From: Mycolicibacterium lutetiense
GTDB taxonomy: Bacteria > Actinomycetota > Actinomycetes > Mycobacteriales > Mycobacteriaceae
Direction: 5' to 3'
NCBI RefSeq assembly: GCF_017876775.1
Contig: NZ_JAGIOP010000002.1
Span: 2,976,001 to 3,040,000, forward strand
DNA length: 64,000 nucleotides
Positions 17,107 to 26,141 of this stretch are shown here, one piece after another; the first letter of the stretch is position 1, and every line of letters begins with the position of its first letter. The position numbers and the translations under genes are program-made. The notes under the pieces were generated by a model. The model did no database searches and was not told the DNA's origin. It was given only the letters and a program-made list of their open reading frames with translations.

Positions 17107-18459
17107 GTGGCTTCCGACCTGTTCTCCCAAGTGGTCAACTCCGGGCCGGGATCGTTCCTGGCCAAGCAGCTGGGCGTGCCGCAGCCTGAGACCCTGCGCC
17201 GCTACCGCCCCGGACAGCCGCCGCTGGCCGGCTCCCTGCTGATCGGCGGGGATGGCCGCGTCATGGAGCCTCTGCGCGCCGCGCTGGCAGGTGACTACGA
17301 CGTGGTGTCCAACAACATCGGCGGCCGCTGGGCCGATTCGTTCGGCGGCGTGGTGCTCGACGCCACCGGCATCCCCGACGCCGCCGGGCTCAAGGAGCTC
17401 TACCAGTTCTTCACCCCGGTGCTGCGCAACCTCGCCTCGTGCGCCCGCGTTGTCGTCATCGGCACCACGCCCGAGGAGGCCGGCAGCGTCGACGCCCAGA
17501 TCGCGCAACGCGCGCTGGAAGGCTTCACCCGTTCGCTGGGCAAGGAGCTGCAGCGCGGCGCCACCGCGTCACTGGTGTACCTGGCGGCCGACGCCAAGCC
17601 CGCCGCGACCGGCCTGGAGTCCACCCTGCGCTTCATCCTCTCGGCCAAGTCGGCCTACGTCGACGGGCAGGTGTACCGGGTCGGTGCCGATGATTCGACG
17701 CCGCCGGCGGACTGGGACAAGCCACTGGCCGGCAAGGTGGCCGTGGTGACCGGCGCTGCCCGCGGCATCGGCGCGACCATCGCCGAGGTGTTCGCGCGGG
17801 ACGGCGCCACGGTCGTGGCCGTCGACGTTCCCCAGGCCGCCGAGGATCTCGGCAAGGTCGCCGAGAAGGTCGGCGGCAGCGCCCTGACCCTGGACGTCAC
17901 CTCGGAAGATGCAGTCGACGCCATCGTCGCCCATGTCACCGCACAGCACGGCGGCAAGGTCGACGTGCTGGTCAACAATGCCGGTATCACCCGCGACAAG
18001 CTGCTCGCCAACATGGACGAGAGCCGCTGGGACTCCGTGATCGCGGTGAACCTGCTTGCCCCGCAGCGACTCACCGAGGGTCTGGTGGCCAGCGGCACGC
18101 TCGGCGACGGCGGCCGGGTGATCGGGCTGTCCTCGATGGCCGGCATCGCCGGTAACCGCGGACAGACCAACTACGCCGCCACCAAGGCCGGGATGATCGG
18201 GCTGACCGAGGCATTGGCACCGGTGCTGGCATCGAAGAACATCACCATCAACGCGGTGGCCCCCGGCTTCATCGAGACCAAGATGACCGATGCCATCCCG
18301 CTGGCCACCCGCGAGGTCGGCCGCCGGCTCAACTCGCTGTTCCAGGGCGGCAAGCCGGTGGACGTGGCCGAGCTGATCGCCTACTTCGCCAGCCCGGCGT
18401 CGAATGCGGTCACCGGCAACACGATCCGGGTCTGCGGCCAGGCCATGTTGGGGGCCTGA
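17107..18459 (+). CDS. fabG4: High-molecular-weight 3-oxoacyl reductase FabG4
   Basis: The GTG start with AAAGG upstream gives 450 residues, the two-domain FabG4 type rather than the ~250 of ordinary FabG. Residues 1-~205 are the flavodoxin-like N-terminal domain. The SDR domain follows, with TGAARGIG at 215-222, NNAG at 290-293, and catalytic S342/S343, Y356 and K360 (NYAATKAG). FabG4 (Rv0242c) is reported to be an NADH-dependent ketoacyl-CoA reductase. The C-terminal family tail carries VCGQAMLGA. It is the first gene of a two-gene operon with htdX, 4 bp apart. Confidence 0.95.
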
Positions 18460-18463
18460 GCAC

Positions 18464-19288
18464 GTGAACAACATGCTGCGCGCCGTCGTCGGCGCCCTAC
18501 CGATCATCCGGCGCGACGACACCCTGCCGGCGCGCACCGTCACGGTCGACAACCTGCCGATAGACCCGGCCAACGTGGCCGCCTACGCGCAGGTGACCGG
18601 GCTGCGGTTCAGCGACACCCTGCCGCTGACCTACCCGTTCGCGCTGACCTTCCCAACCGTGATGTCACTGGTCACCGGCTTCGACTTTCCCTTCGCCGCA
18701 ATGGGTTCGGTGCACCTGGAAAATCACATCACCCAGTACCGGCCGATCAAGGTCACCGATGCCGTCAGCGCGGCCGTGCACGCGGAGAACCTGCGTGAGC
18801 ACCGCAAGGGCCTGCTGGTGGACATCGTCACCGAACTCAAGGTCGGCAACGACACGGTGTGGCATCAGGTGACGACGTTCCTGCACCAGCAGAAGACCAG
18901 CCTGTCCGGTGAGCCCAAGGCGGAGCCGCAGAAACAGCCGAAGCTGCCGCCACCGAACGCCGTGCTGAACATCACGCCGGGACAGATCCGGAACTACGCA
19001 TCGATCGGCGGGGACCACAACCCCATCCACACCAACGGTATCGCCGCCAAGCTGTTCGGCTTCCCCACCGTGATCGCACACGGGATATTCAGTGCGGCAG
19101 CGGTACTGGCGAACATCGAGGGGCAGCTCCCCGACGCCGTCAAGTACTCGGTGCGGTTCGCCAAGCCCGTGGTGCTGCCGGCCAAGGCCGGGCTCTACGT
19201 CGAGCGCGACGCCGACGGCTGGGATCTGACCCTGCGCAACCTGTCGAAGGGCTACCCCCACCTGACCGCGACGGTCAGGCCGCTCTGA
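18464..19288 (+). CDS. htdX: 3-hydroxyacyl-thioester dehydratase HtdX
   Basis: The GTG at 18464 lies 4 bp after the fabG4 stop and gives 274 residues, like Rv0241c. The double hot-dog fold of MaoC-like (R)-hydratases is seen. The N-terminal half carries FALTFPTVMSLVTGFDFPF, a Pro-rich linker (QKQPKLPPP) lies at ~157-164, and the C-terminal catalytic hot dog has GGDHNPIHTN, where D184 and H189 match the hydratase dyad. It would hydrate or dehydrate 3-hydroxyacyl-CoA alongside FabG4. A long hairpin follows as terminator. Confidence 0.94.
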   Translation: MNNMLRAVVGALPIIRRDDTLPARTVTVDNLPIDPANVAAYAQVTGLRFSDTLPLTYPFALTFPTVMSLVTGFDFPFAAMGSVHLENHITQYRPIKVTDAVSAAVHAENLREHRKGLLVDIVTELKVGNDTVWHQVTTFLHQQKTSLSGEPKAEPQKQPKLPPPNAVLNITPGQIRNYASIGGDHNPIHTNGIAAKLFGFPTVIAHGIFSAAAVLANIEGQLPDAVKYSVRFAKPVVLPAKAGLYVERDADGWDLTLRNLSKGYPHLTATVRPL

Positions 19289-19300
19289 CTCTCACACACC

Positions 19301-19354
19301 GAGTCTGCGTACAGATCGCGTTCTCGCGCTAAATCGCGATCTGTACGCAGGCTC
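19301..19354. terminator. Bidirectional hairpin between htdX and mksB
   Basis: Sixteen perfect base pairs join CTGCGTACAGATCGCG (19305-19320) to 19335-19350. Outer GAG/CTC pairs and one G-T pair extend the stem to 20 bp. The loop contains CTCGCGCTAAA (19323-19333), an 11-mer that also occurs at 52837-52847 in another convergent hairpin. Confidence 0.75.
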
Positions 19355-19363
19355 AACGCAATA

Positions 19364-22300
19364 TCAGGCGCTGGGTACCGCGTCCCCCGAAGCGCGTCGC
19401 AGATCGGCGAATTCGGAGATCGATGCCGAGGTGACCGAGGCGACCGGCCGGGCATTGGGTGCCGACGCATCAGACTTGGACACCATCACCACGTTGTCGA
19501 TGTAGGGCTGGATCGTCGTGCTGTTCTGCACGGTCGACACGATCACCAGCTGGAACCCGAACTTGCGGAACGCCGACAAAGCCTGCTGAGCGAACTGCGG
19601 ATCCGACTTCGAGAACGCCTCGTCCAACATCAGCTGGGCGAACAGCGGCCGGGTGTCATTGCTGTCGGGGCTGGCCAGGTTGAAGCTCAACGCCCCGGCC
19701 AGGCAGAACGCCATGAGCTTCTCCTGCTCACCACCCGAGTTGTCACCGGAATTGCTGTAGGTCCGGATCACCTCGCCGGTCTCGGCGTCGCGCTCCTCGC
19801 AGTACAGCACGAACCGGTTACGCACATCCAACGCATCGCGGGTCCATTGACGATCCTCGGGTGTGTTGCCGGCCAACAACTTCCGCAGCTGCAGGATGTC
19901 GGTGTACTGCTCAAACATCGCGGTCTCGTCGCCGAAACTCACCAGCGACACCCGGGAGGAGATGCGCTGAGCCTTCTCGTTGAGTTCGTCGACCGCAGCC
20001 AGGTGCCGGGTACCGGCATGCAGGGTCAGCCGGGTGCCGCGGTTGAACTCCACCGCGCCCAGTCCGGTGTTGACTCGGGCGATCTGCTCGGTGATCCGCC
20101 GCGCCTCGTTGTCGGCGATCATGTGCAAGTTCAGGATCGCTCCCGGCGCCTGCTCGGTGATCAACCGCTGCATACGCTCGTAGGCGTCGGGCAACTCACG
20201 CTCGTCGATACGACGGCACAATCCGACATAGTCGTGCACTCGCTCGTCGAACACATCGCTGTCATTGGGGATGGCATCGGGGAACGAGCTGTCGTAGGCG
20301 GCCATGATGCCGGCGAGCTCGTCATGTGACCGGTTGCGGTCCGCCCGCAGCCGGTCCCGCTCGCGGCTGATGACGCGGTTCAGTTCGCTTCGGTACGGCT
20401 CGGATTCGAGCAACTCGAGGGTCAGTGCGATGTCTGCGGCGTAGCTGTCGATGGTGTCACGGGTGTGCTGCGGTAGCGCGCCGGACCCGAGCCGTTCGGT
20501 CAGGACCTCGGCGAGTTCCAGCAGCGCGGTCCGCCTGCGGTCCAGCGTGGACTCGCGTTCGTTGAGCGAACCGATCTGCTGGATCACCTTCTCGACCCGT
20601 TCCCAGCATTCATCGGCCCGCAGTTGCAGCCGTTCGGCGTCGGGGTTGTCCGAGACCAGCAACTCGTGTTCGTCCTGCAGCCGCTCCAGCATCTCGTCGA
20701 CCGAATCTGAGTCGATATCGCTCCACTGCATGAACTGGTCACACAGCGCCCGGCAGGCACGCTCGCGGGACTGTAGCTGGCCACGGTGCTCGTCGAGGCG
20801 CTCGCGGGAGTTACGCGCCACCTGGTACAGATCCTGGGCAGCAGCCAGATCATCCTGCAGGGCTTCGACTTTGGCTGCGGTACCGCCGAGGAAGATGTAG
20901 TCCGACGGACGTAGCCGCGACCGGTCGTCCTTGATCGACAGTCCGCCGCTGTCTTTGCGCAGGCCCTGGTCGGTGACGGCGCGAGACTGTTCGGTGAACT
21001 CGCCCGGCCCGTCGACACATACGTAATCACCGATGCGTGCGATCACGTTGAGCGCCTCGACCGCACTGTCATGTGTCGGATCGGCGAGCTGGAGTTTGGT
21101 GGCCAGCGTGTGCGGTGGCGGGGTGTGCAACTGTGCGCCGTGCTGGACGTGCTGCAACTGGATCCGGCCACGCATGTCGTTCTCATTGACGAAGCGCAGC
21201 GCGCGTTCCATGTAGGTATCGGGGACCAGCAAGCGTAATCCAGCCCCGCGCAACACCTTTTCGACGGCCAGCCGCCATCGTGTCTCGTCGGGCTTGAGTT
21301 CCATCAGCTCCGCGACATAGACCAGGTCACGCTCGGAGATGTCGAGCGCCCGGGCGATCCGTGCCCGCATCTCGTATTCGGTCCGCGGCAGCGGGGAGCC
21401 CAACCGCTGCACCCGCTCCAGCTCGGACTCCACGCTCTCGCGCGCCTCCCGGGCCCGCACCTCCTTGGCCGAGGCCTCGACGTAGGGCTGGTTCCCGGTG
21501 AACAGCTCCCGATGCAGCCGGTCGGCCTCGTCCATCAATGTCTCACGCAGCGACCAGAATTCCTCGCCGTTGTCCGGCGGGGTCAACCCCAGTGCGGTGA
21601 CCTTGTCCTCGTAGCCGCTGCGCCGGCGCGACACCTCTTCGCTGATCCGTTCGGCCTCGGTCAGACGCTGCTGCAGCGGCACCAGATCCACCGTGACCGT
21701 GTTGATCTGGGCCATCAGCGAGTTGTGCTCGTTCTTGAGCTGACGCTGCTGTGAACCGAACTCGTCACGCTGGGCACCGAGCTGAGTGATTTGGTCGTCG
21801 AGATTGTCGATCTCCGGGCCGGCCTGGGCCAACCGCAGGTGATCGACGTAGTCGCGGACCAACGCGTTGTCGACCGTGTCGATCACGCCGAACTTGGCTG
21901 CCTCTTCGGCATAACGCGCCTGCACCGCAGCGATGTTTCCCAGCGTATTGCGCTTGCGCCGGGCCACATCCAGCAGCCCGCGGGCTTCGACCAGCGGGTT
22001 GATCTGCTCCAGAGCCTCCTCCACGCCACTGAGGCTGACGGGCTCGTCGAGCATGAATTCACGCACGAATTGCTCAAGCCCACCAACGCTTTTCAGTGAT
22101 TTCGCCTTGCCGAGAAGCTGCTGCGCGGCCTCCGAGGCGCGGATGCCGATGCTGGCGTACAACTGGGCCAGATACTGACTCTCGCTGCGACCACCGGTCC
22201 AGCCGTCGTCGCGGAACACCGCGGCGTCATAACCGTTGGACGCCCACCGATTGCACAGGCCGAAGATGTCGCGGTCGTCATCGATCAGGTAGTAGCGGCT

Positions 22301-22738
22301 GCCCGGATCCGACGTCTTCTCGGCGGCAAGCCATTTGAGTACCAACCCGGTGACCGAGCGCCCGGTGCGGTCGCTGTAGGTGACCGAAACTGCCGACCAG
22401 GCCGGGCCCGTCCCACGCAGGTACATGATCTGCCGGTTGGCGCCCTCCCGCCGCTCACCCCAGGCGCCACGGACGTACTTGTCGACGGTCCGTTTTCCGG
22501 TGCCTGCTCCCGCGGCGGTCGTGTCGCCGGAAGCGTTGAAGTTACGCCGGTGCGAAGGCAGGAACGCCAGCGAGATCGCGTCCAGCAGTGAGGATTTACC
22601 GCTACCCGAGGATCCGGTGATCAGCGTGCCGTGCTGACTGAACGGGATCGAGTGATACCCGTCGAACACCCCCCAATTGATGACCTGCAGGCGCGACAAC
22701 GAGAACTGGTTGGTCGGTTCAGCCATGTGCGTCCACAT
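19364..22738 (-). CDS. mksB: SMC-like condensin ATPase MksB (JetC/EptC type)
   Basis: The protein has 1124 residues. Walker A is GSSGSGKS at 42-49, the ABC signature begins SGGEQEKLM at 1001, and Walker B is LMLDEAF with D1039/E1040. Between the head halves lie long charged coiled-coil stretches (~240-450 and ~650-830) around a globular mid-region (~470-620, [16 protein letters not shown]). This is the MukB-like SMC of the MksBEF/Wadjet group, shorter than true SMC. Such complexes extrude DNA loops; Wadjet versions recognise and cut small circular plasmids. The start could be M1 (22738) or M5 (22726). Both overlap mksE, so the genes are coupled. M. smegmatis has an MksB recalled next to htdX in the same place. 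Confidence 0.95.
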
Positions 22739-23471
22739 CGTCGGAGAGCCGTTCGGATACGTCCATGTCGTCGGAATCGTCGGTGGCGGTGCCGTTCGCA
22801 GCCCGCTTGAGTTGCTCGAACTGCTGTTGCAACTCGGTGATCATCGAAGCCGTCATGATCGCGTTGACCACCGGGTTGATGGTGAAGCTGTCCTCGTCCT
22901 CCCGGTTGCGCGAGAGCATCTCGATATCGGTGAGCCGCTCGATCGCGTTGTCGATCCGCTTGTCGAACGAGGCGATGTCGCGGTCGGTGTCGTTGTTCAC
23001 CCCGGCGAACAGCTCATGGATCTCGTCACGGCTGATCAGCACGTTCTCGTCACGGGATGCGGCACGCATGAGCTTGGCCAGGTGCAGTGCCAGGATCGAG
23101 TCGTAGGTGTTGAGGGTCTCGCGGCGTAGCAACCGGCGCCGCCACTGCGACTCATAATCGGCCGTCTCGACGTAGGCGATGTCGTGATCGTCCGAGATAC
23201 ACAGCCGCAGATCGAGTTCCGAGAGCCGCACGGTGATCTCGGTGCGGTACCGGGTGACCCACGCCCACAGCTCGGAGTGGTTGTCCTTGCTGATGTAGCG
23301 CCGCGCCAGCAGGTGCTGCAGTGCCCAGCAGGCCCGGTCGGGCAACTCGCTGACGTCGCCGTCGAAGCGGGGTGCGCGACGCTGTTCGGTGGTCCGCTCG
23401 ACGGCGTCGATGCTCGGCAGGGCATCGAAGTCGACCCCGGTGTCAAACGTGGGGTCGGGGGTCTCGGTCAT
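22719..23471 (-). CDS. mksE: Condensin kite subunit MksE (JetB, DUF4194)
   Basis: The 250-residue protein fits the DUF4194 winged-helix kite subunit. The first ~45 residues are acidic and disordered. The helical core follows with [20 protein letters not shown] and [19 protein letters not shown], then [18 protein letters not shown], and it ends in another acidic tail. Kite dimers bind the kleisin MksF and DNA inside the condensin ring. Its ATG overlaps the mksF stop by 4 bp (ATGA), and its end overlaps the mksB start, so F-E-B are translated as one unit. Confidence 0.92.
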
Positions 23472-24934
23472 AGCATGCTCTCACTGGCAGTAGGGATCGG
23501 CTCGGTGAAAACCAGTCGGGGTATCTCGATTTCGCGATCGGCACCCTCCAGAGACCGGAAGCGCACCCGCACAGATTCAGCGTTTTCGGCGGGGTGCTGC
23601 TTGAGGGCCCAGGACCACAGCACGATCACATGCCCGAGATACGCCGAGTCCAGCATGCTGATCGCGTCGGGCAGCGACACCGGCCCGACCGCCACCGCGC
23701 CGTTGACCAACTCGGCCAACTCAGCGGCGTCGACCTGGGACGCCAATGCCGAGAATGCCGACAGATTGACCTCGCCCTCGGAGGACTCGGCCGGTGACGG
23801 CGGGATCGCGTCACGAATCTTGAAGGCCACGGCGCCAATCGAATTGAGATCGGTGCGGGCCAGCGGAACCTCGATACCGATGCGACTGTCGGCCAGGGAG
23901 ACGCTGAGGAGGTCGTGCGCGCCGGCCAGTGCCTCGTTGAGCTGACGGGTGACACCGCGACTGTGTTCCAGCGTGCCGGAGGCGACAAAACGCTTGATCC
24001 GGCGGGCGCAGCGCTGACGAGTCCGCCCGACCTCGGCCGTCTGCGCCGACACCAGGCTGAAGAACCCGGTCATCACCTCACGCAGGTCCGGGTCCAGGTG
24101 CGGTAACTCACGGGTCACCGCCTCGATGTCTGTCACCAAGGCGGCCCGCTGCTCGGGGTCCTGGATCATGCGGGTGAAGGCGGTGTAGGAGGCACTCTCA
24201 CGGGAAGCGAACAGTGACTCGTAGTCGTCGAACAACTGGCGCTGACGTTCCCGGTAGCCGAGGTCGGTATCGGCGGAGGCGTCCAGCAGTCGGGTAGTGA
24301 TCCGGTTGAGCATGGCGCCGTACTGCCCGATGTCGGAGACGATCTGCTCCATCTGCAAGGCGATGGCCCGCGCGTCGTCCTCGACGTCGACCAGGTCGGG
24401 CTCAGGCCGCTGCCCCTGCTCGAGGGCATCGAGTTCGTCACGCAGCCTGGCGATCTCGGCTTCGATGTCGGCGCGGATACGGTCCGGGTCGTTGCTGACC
24501 TGGCCGGCCACCCGGCGCAGCCCGGCCGCGATACCGGTGATCGAGCCGCCGGTCGCGACCGTGTCCTCGCGGCGCATGCGGCGCGCGAAATCCAGCACGG
24601 CCCGGGCCTCGTAGGTCAGGTAGCAGACGTTGCGTTCAGCGTCACCGGACTGCTCGGTGATCCGGTGCAGCCAGCCCTGGCTGGCCCAGTATTTGATCAG
24701 GGCGAGGCCGGACTGCTCGGTCTCGGAGCCCAGATCGGTCAGGTCGCGTTCCAGCCGGACCACCAACTCGGTCTCGGTGAGCTTGGCGCCCCGGTCCAGG
24801 TGGCGTTCCATCAACGTGACATAGGTGGCCAGATTGTTCGTCACCAGCAGCCGGGCCGACCGTGACTCGGCGACCTCGCGGTTGAGCTGGTAGAGCTGGT
24901 CCAGCGACGAGCCACCGATGCCTGCGTCAGGCAT
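23468..24934 (-). CDS. mksF: Condensin kleisin subunit MksF (JetA, DUF3375)
   Basis: The start is taken at ATG 24934 ([20 protein letters not shown], 488 residues). Upstream sequence in the same frame reads as arginine/cysteine-rich non-coding DNA. The protein matches DUF3375: an N-terminal helical domain ([20 protein letters not shown]), a winged-helix segment ([14 protein letters not shown]), a long coiled coil at ~145-260 ([18 protein letters not shown]), and a C-terminal domain. It is the first gene of the operon, with a ~118 bp upstream region shared with a divergent methyltransferase. The canonical fourth gene (JetD/MksG nuclease) does not follow mksB. Confidence 0.92.
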
Positions 24935-25052
24935 TACCGGGGTCTTCCGTCGCGATCGACATTCGCACCACTCTAGGCGGCCCACGCGACAGGTTCCGAC
25001 CCCAGTTCGGTTTGCTGTTCCTACCTTGAACAACCTGCCCTAGAGTTGTCCG

Positions 25053-26141
25053 GTGACTCCCGCCAAGGTGCCACCCGCTCGATTGGTTCGCGTGGTCGAA
25101 CGGGTCCGCCACCACCTGCGTCGCGTGCATCAACGCGCCGTGCCACCGCCCGCGGCGATGCTGGAGATGATCCTGAGCGCCTGGGTCGCCCAGGGCATCG
25201 CGGCCGCCGCACAGCTCGGGGTGGCCGACGCGCTGGCCGACGGGCCGCTGCGCCCCGATGAGCTGGCGCGCCGCGTCGCCGCCAACCCCGACACGCTGGA
25301 CAGGCTGATGCGAGCCCTGGTCAGCGAGGGCGTCTTCCGCCGTACCCGTGACGGACGCTATGCACTGAACCCGCTGGCCGACACCCTGCGCACCGATGCG
25401 CCGGTGTCCGTCGGGGCGATGGCGAAACTCGTGGGCTCACCGCAGCATCGCGAGCACTGGAGCCATCTCGACGACGCGGTCCGCACCGGTGAGGCCGTCA
25501 TCCCCAAGCTCCGTGGCCAATCCGCGTTCGACTACATGGGCTCGGTGCCCGAACTCGCCGCAATCTTCAACGACGCCATGACGAGCATCTCCGAGCTCGC
25601 GATCGCGCCGGTGGCGGCCGCCTACGACTTCACCCGGTTCGGCACCATCGCCGATGTCGGCGGCGGACACGGCCGGCTGCTGGCCGCCGTGCTGACGGCC
25701 GCCCCCGCAGCCCGCGGCATGCTCTACGACCTGCCGCACGTGGTCGAGGGGGCGCCGGCAATGTTAACCAAATACGAAGTGGCCGAACGGGTCCGCGTGA
25801 TCCCCGGGTCCTTCTTCGACAATGTCCCCGCGGGCGCCGACGCCTACGTGCTGAAAAACATCATTCATGACTGGCCCGACGAAGAGGCCCTGACGATCCT
25901 GCGCAACGTGCGCGCCGCCGCCGCCCCGGGAGCAACCCTGCTGCTGATCGAGGCCGTCATCCCAGACCATGACCGTGAGTTCCTCGGCAAGTGGGTCGAC
26001 ATGGAGATGTTGATCGGCATCGCCGCCCGGGAACGCAGCGAGGACGACTACCGTCGGCTCTACCAACAGGCGGGTTTCCAACTCACCCGCGTGGTGGAGA
26101 CCGCCTCGCCGTTCAGCGTGGTGGAGGGTACGGCGGTCTAG
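25053..26141 (+). CDS. SAM-dependent O-methyltransferase (plant COMT/hydroxyindole type)
   Basis: The protein has 362 residues from a GTG start. The N-terminal dimerisation winged helix (~35-110: MILSAWVAQGIAAAAQLGVADAL and DTLDRLMRALVSEGVF) precedes a methyltransferase domain. That domain has the SAM loop TIADVGGGHGRLLAAVL, then VLKNIIHDWPDEEAL, with the His of IIHDW at the position of the catalytic base of this family. It would methylate a hydroxyl of a small, probably aromatic or polyketide, substrate. It is divergent from the mks operon, and its stop codon overlaps that of the convergent lipoprotein gene (shared CTAG, 26138-26141). Confidence 0.88.
   Translation: MTPAKVPPARLVRVVERVRHHLRRVHQRAVPPPAAMLEMILSAWVAQGIAAAAQLGVADALADGPLRPDELARRVAANPDTLDRLMRALVSEGVFRRTRDGRYALNPLADTLRTDAPVSVGAMAKLVGSPQHREHWSHLDDAVRTGEAVIPKLRGQSAFDYMGSVPELAAIFNDAMTSISELAIAPVAAAYDFTRFGTIADVGGGHGRLLAAVLTAAPAARGMLYDLPHVVEGAPAMLTKYEVAERVRVIPGSFFDNVPAGADAYVLKNIIHDWPDEEALTILRNVRAAAAPGATLLLIEAVIPDHDREFLGKWVDMEMLIGIAARERSEDDYRRLYQQAGFQLTRVVETASPFSVVEGTAV

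Follow-up and report, generated by a model that had tools for sequence, protein, structure and literature searches.

The 64,000-nucleotide stretch of Mycolicibacterium lutetiense DNA analysed here (the window; positions 2,976,001 to 3,040,000 of contig NZ_JAGIOP010000002.1, assembly GCF_017876775.1) carries on its reverse strand, between positions 19364 and 24934, an intact MksF–MksE–MksB operon (JetA–JetB–JetC in Wadjet terms) without a gene for the TOPRIM nuclease JetD/MksG. All three reading frames are open and overlap by 20 bp (mksB/mksE) and 4 bp (mksE/mksF), and PADLOC assigned MksF, MksE and MksB to JetA, JetB and JetC of type I. Coordinates, Pfam and PADLOC agree on the tightly overlapping three-gene operon proposed in the initial annotation, and the Walker A, signature and Walker B motifs of MksB, described there as intact, can all be read in the sequence (Table 1). 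The operon unites JetA, JetB and JetC as in type I Wadjet and lacks the nuclease of that system. It has the composition of a nuclease-free MksBEF-type condensin, with a structural maintenance of chromosomes (SMC)-like ATPase bearing all three motifs and a kite and a kleisin encoded alongside, and it does not have the four genes, with JetD beside mksB, of the EptC/EptABCD arrangement. Upstream of the ATG at 24934 the mksF frame stays open as far as a TTG at 25033, and a simple scan of 24800–25120 found no sigma-70-like promoter.

Table 1 Features of the MksFEB locus and its 3′ flank, in window positions
Feature	Coordinates	Strand	Description
mksB / jetC	19364–22738	−	SMC-like ATPase, 1124 aa; Pfam AAA_29 and SbcC_Walker_B; PADLOC JetC 1977 bits
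mksE / jetB	22719–23471	−	kite, 250 aa; Pfam DUF4194 4.7e-40, MksE 9.1e-08; PADLOC JetB 371 bits
mksF / jetA	23468–24934	−	kleisin, 488 aa from the ATG at 24934; Pfam DUF3375 5.9e-105; PADLOC JetA 842 bits
MksB Walker A GSSGSGKS	22592–22615	−	sequence motif, intact
MksB ABC signature SGGEQEK	19718–19738	−	sequence motif, intact
MksB Walker B LMLDEAF	19613–19633	−	sequence motif, intact
MksE RFDGD, residues 35–39	23355–23369	−	possible counterpart of the JetB IFDR motif
htdX-like MaoC dehydratase	18404–19288	+	Pfam MaoC_dehydratas 9.7e-23; convergent 3′ neighbour, outside the complex; name htdX taken from the initial annotation
Inverted repeat between mksB and htdX	19301–19354		27-nt arms, 85% complementary, no spacer; possible two-way terminator

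Comparison with the PDB relates the three proteins to solved Wadjet complexes. MksB aligns along almost all of its length with JetC chains (8as8, E 4.3e-61; 8dk2, E 1.6e-51). The match of MksE to JetB is weak for the single sequence (E 0.05) and reaches 1.3e-7 for a profile against JetB of 8dk1, with 9qxt and 8as8 also matched. MksF gave no PDB match by sequence. For its AlphaFold2 model, which is moderately confident (mean pLDDT 72.4, pTM 0.37), the top five PDB matches are to chains in JetABC/JetABCD entries (E 9.4e-10) and the sixth is to MukBEF (E 1.2e-4); these chains were taken as JetA by exclusion, since in 8as8 chain A is JetC and chain C is JetB. With TM-scores of 0.15–0.36 on the query for the top six and a high root-mean-square deviation, the model supports family membership and not close structural likeness. 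A search of NCBIfam gave nothing above cut-off for any of the three proteins.

Search for JetD in the window and the genome

We searched for JetD in the window and in the whole genome (6,345,289 bases, 3 contigs, completeness 100). Neither the JetD_C profile nor the DUF3322 profile matched anywhere in the genome; each was positive in 1 of 14 control genomes, that of C. glutamicum. A hidden Markov model (HMM) built from mycobacterial JetD proteins, and aimed at JetD-type nucleases only, found nothing in the window even at E<10, in agreement with the reported lack of JetD/MksG at the locus; the same HMM recovers JetD of a Pseudomonas plasmid (1.4e-63) and of a Stenotrophomonas plasmid (3.6e-62). 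MksB is single-copy in the genome at E 0.001, which speaks against a second Mks operon furnishing JetD, and one canonical SMC hinge is encoded elsewhere. The JetD HMM was also silent 3′ of mksB in three window-clade loci examined closely (L066, L068 and L061), where a jetD remnant had been considered.

The initial annotation had called for a genome-wide profile search and had left room for a nuclease encoded at another locus or for a frameshifted jetD overlooked at this one. The search returned neither, and JetD acting in trans appears unlikely in this genome because no JetD_C or DUF3322 match was found in it and no remnant at the locus. That JetD is present yet missed, being unassembled or too diverged, is extremely improbable. 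In its favour are the 3-contig assembly and the chance that profiles overlook a JetD that has diverged far; against it stand the completeness of the genome, the positive control of both profiles, the detection of gammaproteobacterial JetD at ~1e-63 by an HMM that finds nothing in the window, and the lack of any JetD_C in 79 of the 90 genus genomes with this MksB class, described below.

Distribution of the JetD-free operon and MksB phylogeny

We determined how far the JetD-free state extends in a genus set of 198 genomes (Mycobacterium in the wide sense), scoring the three best MksB candidates per genome. An MksB-like match was obtained in 114 genomes, and a near full-length MksB of the window's class, 57–100% identical to the window protein, in 90: 11 genomes, the window's included, at 86–100% and 79 at 57–60%, where one copy carries a stop (G045) and another is in two pieces (G019). 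JetD_C lies beside mksB in none of these 90 genomes and is missing altogether from 79 of them. For the 11 with any JetD_C (10 of the 79 with 57–60% copies and 1 of the 11 of the window clade), adjacency was judged by comparing coordinates by eye. JetD_C is positive overall in 30/198 genomes, and the JetD-linked MksB of the genus is 25–30% or 50–52% identical to that of the window. The 25–30% copies, which we call EptC-like (our own label, set without comparison to the EptC sequence), are mostly JetD-linked; the 50–52% copies, present in four genomes (G172, G180, G086 and G163, the last with a split copy), have JetD next to mksB. One genome, G088, combines a JetD-free MksFEB with a separate JetD-bearing operon (L092 and L093).

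Relatives at 89–96% identity, as named from 80 of 138 confirmed loci, are M. septicum, M. senegalense, M. peregrinum, M. houstonense, M. setense, M. fortunisiensis and M. wolinskyi, together with strains of unnamed species; we take them to be the fortuitum group. The comparison with related mycobacteria that the initial annotation had suggested thus makes the absence of JetD a property of the lineage and not a local oddity.

The same partition holds in a family set of 401 genomes, in which two MksB candidates per genome were scored and linkage was defined as JetD_C within 4 kb of the MksB match. Among the 150 matches listed, outside which the weakest ones lie, linkage was found for 0/7 at 86–100% and 0/55 at 57–63% (0/62 of the window class), 2/2 at 50–54%, 2/38 at 31–35% (two of the 38 being fragments) and 47/48 of the EptC-like matches at 25–30%. 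JetD_C lies elsewhere in the genome for 12 of the 55 and 1 of the 7 listed matches. A further genus, g9, has a 61–63% form in 37 of its 59 genomes. Every genome of three other genera, g30 (16/16), g11 (9/9) and g19 (8/8), carries an MksB of the 31–35% lineage, and a JetD_C search of all 33 was negative; two of the 16 copies of g30 are in pieces, and in 5 of the 33 genomes the match crosses one TGA. Genus g30 is probably Tsukamurella, because the MksE of one of its loci (L228) resembles an MksE encoded in a T. tyrosinosolvens record.

In total, 161 loci with mksB were examined, the window included: 15 with JetD and 146 without (138 distinct MksB). The latter comprise 22 loci of the window clade and the window itself, 86 with 57–60% copies, 16 from g9, 1 from genus g31 and 20 of the 31–35% lineage, and at least 3 kb downstream of mksB is present in 143 of them. 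A PIF1-like helicase was considered as a replacement gene beside the 57–60% members and rejected, as it occurs in just 9 of the 86 loci; in 2 of the 10 loci having the helicase (one of the 10 EptC-like) it lies on the same strand within 800 bp 3′ of mksB. Of the 20 loci retrieved for the 31–35% lineage, 12 have an AlkZ-like DNA glycosylase gene (PF06224; 1.6e-74 in L238:8458–9852) in the place expected for JetD, on the same strand and at most 800 bp 3′ of mksB. Separately, a 220 kb plasmid of M. fortuitum (CP089609.1; L250:2773–8342) has jetB, jetC and a jetA that its annotation splits into two genes, with an MksB ~28% identical to that of the window; the JetD HMM found no JetD in the 13 kb fetched.

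We calculated two MksB trees, one with FastTree from 149 distinct sequences and a quick one with IQ-TREE from 33 representatives; their outlines agree. One JetD-free group (FastTree support 1.0) comprises the window clade, g9 and most 57–60% copies, and g31 joins this group weakly (FastTree 0.04; SH-aLRT 92 in the 33-row tree). A small mycobacterial JetD-free group (L093, L096 and L097) sits with the JetD-bearing L218 and L082, and the 31–35% lineage is sister to the JetD-bearing L219 and L220. On the tree of representatives the JetD state changes at least 3 times, as forced by its starred branches. With 30 rows (three long branches omitted), the approximately unbiased (AU) test rejects both a single clade of all JetD-free rows (p-AU 2.6e-05) and a single JetD-free clade inside the 50–100% group (p-AU 1.4e-95), a group picked after seeing the tree. 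JetD itself gave a tree of 15 loci, and its patristic distances follow those of MksB (Spearman 0.80, 0/999 permutations as high, 14 taxa). Because the two trees run parallel, JetD appears to be old in these operons and its loss the simpler direction. We infer that the changes of state are losses, and that JetD was probably lost at least 3 times while the motor was kept under purifying selection. The initial suggestion of a lost cutter and a kept motor is thereby borne out as lineage-wide and, by the trees, repeated.

Constraint on the motor and on MksE

The strength of selection was estimated from ratios of non-synonymous to synonymous substitution rates (dN/dS; Nei–Gojobori, median over pairs with 0.05<dS<1.2) for 18 distinct window-clade loci. 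The medians are 0.050 for mksB, 0.094 for mksE and 0.107 for mksF, compared with 0.067 for fadA2, 0.095 for fabG4 and 0.150 for htdX (17 loci each) and 0.175 and 0.057 for the O-methyltransferase and tetR genes (16 loci each). An earlier run of 23 rows that included near-copies gave 0.047, 0.037 and 0.095 for mksB, mksE and mksF. Medians are higher in the other JetD-free groups (0.12–0.34); those of the JetD-bearing EptC-like set (0.41–1.04, dS near 1) are saturated and were discarded. Walker A, signature and Walker B are all present in 143 of 144 JetD-free MksB, two of the 146 loci being omitted as split copies; the exception is without the Walker A pattern. All 22 window-clade loci tested retain the three motifs, as does the window. 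Judged by the low dN/dS and the kept motor motifs, the complex is in use, though not essential.

A decaying Wadjet remnant without present function is accordingly highly improbable. Broken copies in four genomes (G031, G158, G028 and G114) and the many mycobacteria that gave no match speak for decay; against it, none of the three genes has a median dN/dS above the range seen for the fatty-acid genes next to the operon, and the ATPase motifs are kept in all the window-clade loci tested and in the window.

We also compared the change of MksF and MksE relative to that of MksB (F/B and E/B) in JetD-free and JetD-bearing pairs. At 3–20% MksB divergence, F/B and E/B are 1.35 and 1.14 in 30 JetD-free pairs vs 0.90 and 0.66 in 4 JetD-bearing pairs; at 20–45%, 1.04 and 0.98 (98 pairs) vs 0.86 and 0.52 (4 pairs); and at 45–55%, 0.97 and 1.07 (13 pairs) vs 0.90 and 0.98 (6 pairs). 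With so few JetD-bearing pairs, a faster change of MksF and MksE in JetD-free operons is not usable as evidence.

JetD is reported to contact an IFDR motif at the N-terminus of JetB (PMC10586767). A plasmid-borne JetB of P. aeruginosa shows LFDQ close to its N-terminus, and the JetB of the M. fortuitum plasmid, for which no neighbouring JetD was found, shows LFDGD; in MksE of the window the possible counterpart is RFDGD. We expected this docking motif to have decayed where JetD is missing and did not find it so: RFDGD is exact in 140 of the 146 JetD-free loci, and the other 6 vary at the third residue. Among seven JetD-bearing sisters (50–54% and 34%), four have RFDGD, two a variant, and one split copy is unreadable; EptC-like MksE with JetD adjacent has the motif in just 2 of 8 cases, as LFDGD. 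Since the motif is this rare in JetD-linked EptC-like copies, and since the PDB alignments of MksE stop short of the IFDR site, the segment may serve the complex itself.

The conserved segment could also mean that RFDGD of MksE is the docking site of a non-JetD partner (a different nuclease, a topoisomerase or a polar scaffold) that stands in for JetD and processes DNA in trans. The near-invariance of RFDGD and the contact of JetD with IFDR fit such docking, as do the reported binding of topoisomerase IV to MukB (PMC10123090) and the AlkZ-like gene directly 3′ of mksB in the 31–35% lineage. We nevertheless consider it unlikely: the equivalence of RFDGD and IFDR is our own reading of the sequences, the scarcity of the motif in JetD-linked EptC-like MksE argues against a dedicated JetD site, no recurring extra gene stands beside most of 18 loci of 57–60% copies or 17 of g9 and g31 whose neighbours were clustered, and the glycosylase was found in the 31–35% lineage alone. 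A tentative and rather doubtful extension is that an anti-plasmid Wadjet was domesticated at least 3 times by loss of its nuclease, the docking segment of the kite being kept to recruit a cellular client.

On its 3′ side, mksB (ending at 19364) and htdX (ending at 19288) converge across an intergenic gap of 75 bp. The gap and the convergent htdX are as the initial annotation gave them; the terminator that it placed there corresponds to an inverted repeat, possibly a two-way terminator. In 17 of 18 distinct window-clade loci mksB faces htdX with fabG4 and fadA2 beyond, M. wolinskyi being the exception. The spacing varies among relatives: a 2.8 kb stretch with open reading frames of ~100, 611 and 172 aa separates mksB from htdX in two loci (L066:11443–14116 and L068:5885–8564), gaps of 2.3–2.8 kb occur in L106, L107 and L166, all window-clade relatives, and 0.3 kb in L061. 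The operon itself is opened up in L098 (genome G145), where mksB, mksE and mksF are separated by ~2.9 and 2.6 kb, and in L131, where mksF and mksE lie 1.8 kb apart.

Proposed chromosomal role and known systems

We regard it as somewhat more probable than not that the operon encodes a Wadjet-derived, nuclease-free accessory condensin acting on the chromosome. This is the best reading because the cutter is gone, the motor is kept, a canonical Smc is present and a comparable MksB occurs in every genome examined of three genera; P. aeruginosa MksBEF is read in the same way. Nuclease-free MksBEF would then descend from type I Wadjet (JetABCD), JetD having been lost in an ancestor common to other mycobacteria and one or more further genera, and independently in two or more other lineages. 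As in the family at large, an MksB ATPase dimer, the MksF kleisin and the MksE kite would most likely load on DNA, with ATP hydrolysis driving loop extrusion. Without JetD, extrusion would not end in cutting, and the complex would work on the chromosome as an accessory condensin alongside canonical Smc. DNA loading, loop extrusion and a chromosomal role are predicted by analogy, and chromosome organisation is a plausible function of the complex.

Several observations weigh against this assignment. (i) The direction of change depends on the root, which was set by the EptC-like outgroup, and the MksB trees contain long branches that drew a warning from the tool. (ii) The retention of RFDGD is unexpected if the motif only held JetD. 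(iii) The 18 examined loci of 57–60% copies have varied chromosomal surroundings, away from the htdX place, as expected of an accessory rather than a housekeeping system. (iv) MksB is dispensable, as 84 of the 198 genus genomes gave no match among the three candidates scored and a few copies, those of the four genomes named above, are broken. (v) A triple deletion of the SMC genes of M. smegmatis (MSMEG_2423, EptC and MSMEG_0370) is reported to leave nucleoid condensation normal both in the presence and in the absence of fusidic acid (PMC6135046), and any role is therefore subtle or redundant. (vi) MksBEFG of C. glutamicum, where MksG is present, is reported to affect plasmids and not the chromosome (PMC7083940).

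Another possibility is that MksBEF controls plasmids without cutting, compacting or mis-segregating small circular DNA and lowering its maintenance by topology. In M. smegmatis, EptC is said to influence plasmid segregation via DNA topology (PMC6135046, citing Panas 2014), and C. glutamicum MksB is reported to control the copy number of low-copy plasmids (PMC7083940). Both proteins, however, come from systems of four subunits that include JetD/MksG, the subunit to which the execution of plasmid defence is attributed (PMC10123090, for MksG). M. fortuitum does have the 220 kb plasmid described above, but a molecule of this size may not be a substrate. We judge plasmid control of this kind to be quite improbable.

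If domestication is the correct description, these operons would be natural nuclease-minus mutants that could show what Wadjet loop extrusion does alone. JetD-free and JetD-bearing sister clades occur within one bacterial family, with at least 3 changes of state and the motor kept, and the interconversion of SMC defence and SMC chromosome complexes can be followed there. The sister clades provide matched pairs in which one can ask whether chromosomes are organised by loop extrusion that does not end in cutting, and what residues have changed.

The kind of complex is already known, and the repeated loss is the interesting part. Titles and abstract openings of the literature on MSMEG_0370, MksBEF and JetD loss held no description of repeated JetD loss in the family, and the pattern may not have been described before. 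M. smegmatis is reported to have a MukB-like protein other than EptC, MSMEG_0370 (PMC6135046). The orthologs given for fabG4 and fadA2 are MSMEG_0372 and MSMEG_0373 (PMC10699116), and the order of the locus tags places MSMEG_0370 at the position of mksB. By this order it is probably the counterpart of the window locus. A JetD-less MksBEF is also reported in P. aeruginosa (PMC10586767); that condensin belongs to another phylum, and we assume an origin separate from that of the mycobacterial complex. Type I Wadjet JetABCD, with structures from E. coli and P. aeruginosa PA14, has counterparts of JetA, JetB and JetC in the window by profile, of JetC also by sequence and of JetA (MksF) by fold, and differs in having JetD. 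EptABCD of M. smegmatis and MksBEFG of C. glutamicum belong to the same complex family and are described as restricting plasmids; they carry the fourth subunit that the window operon lacks.

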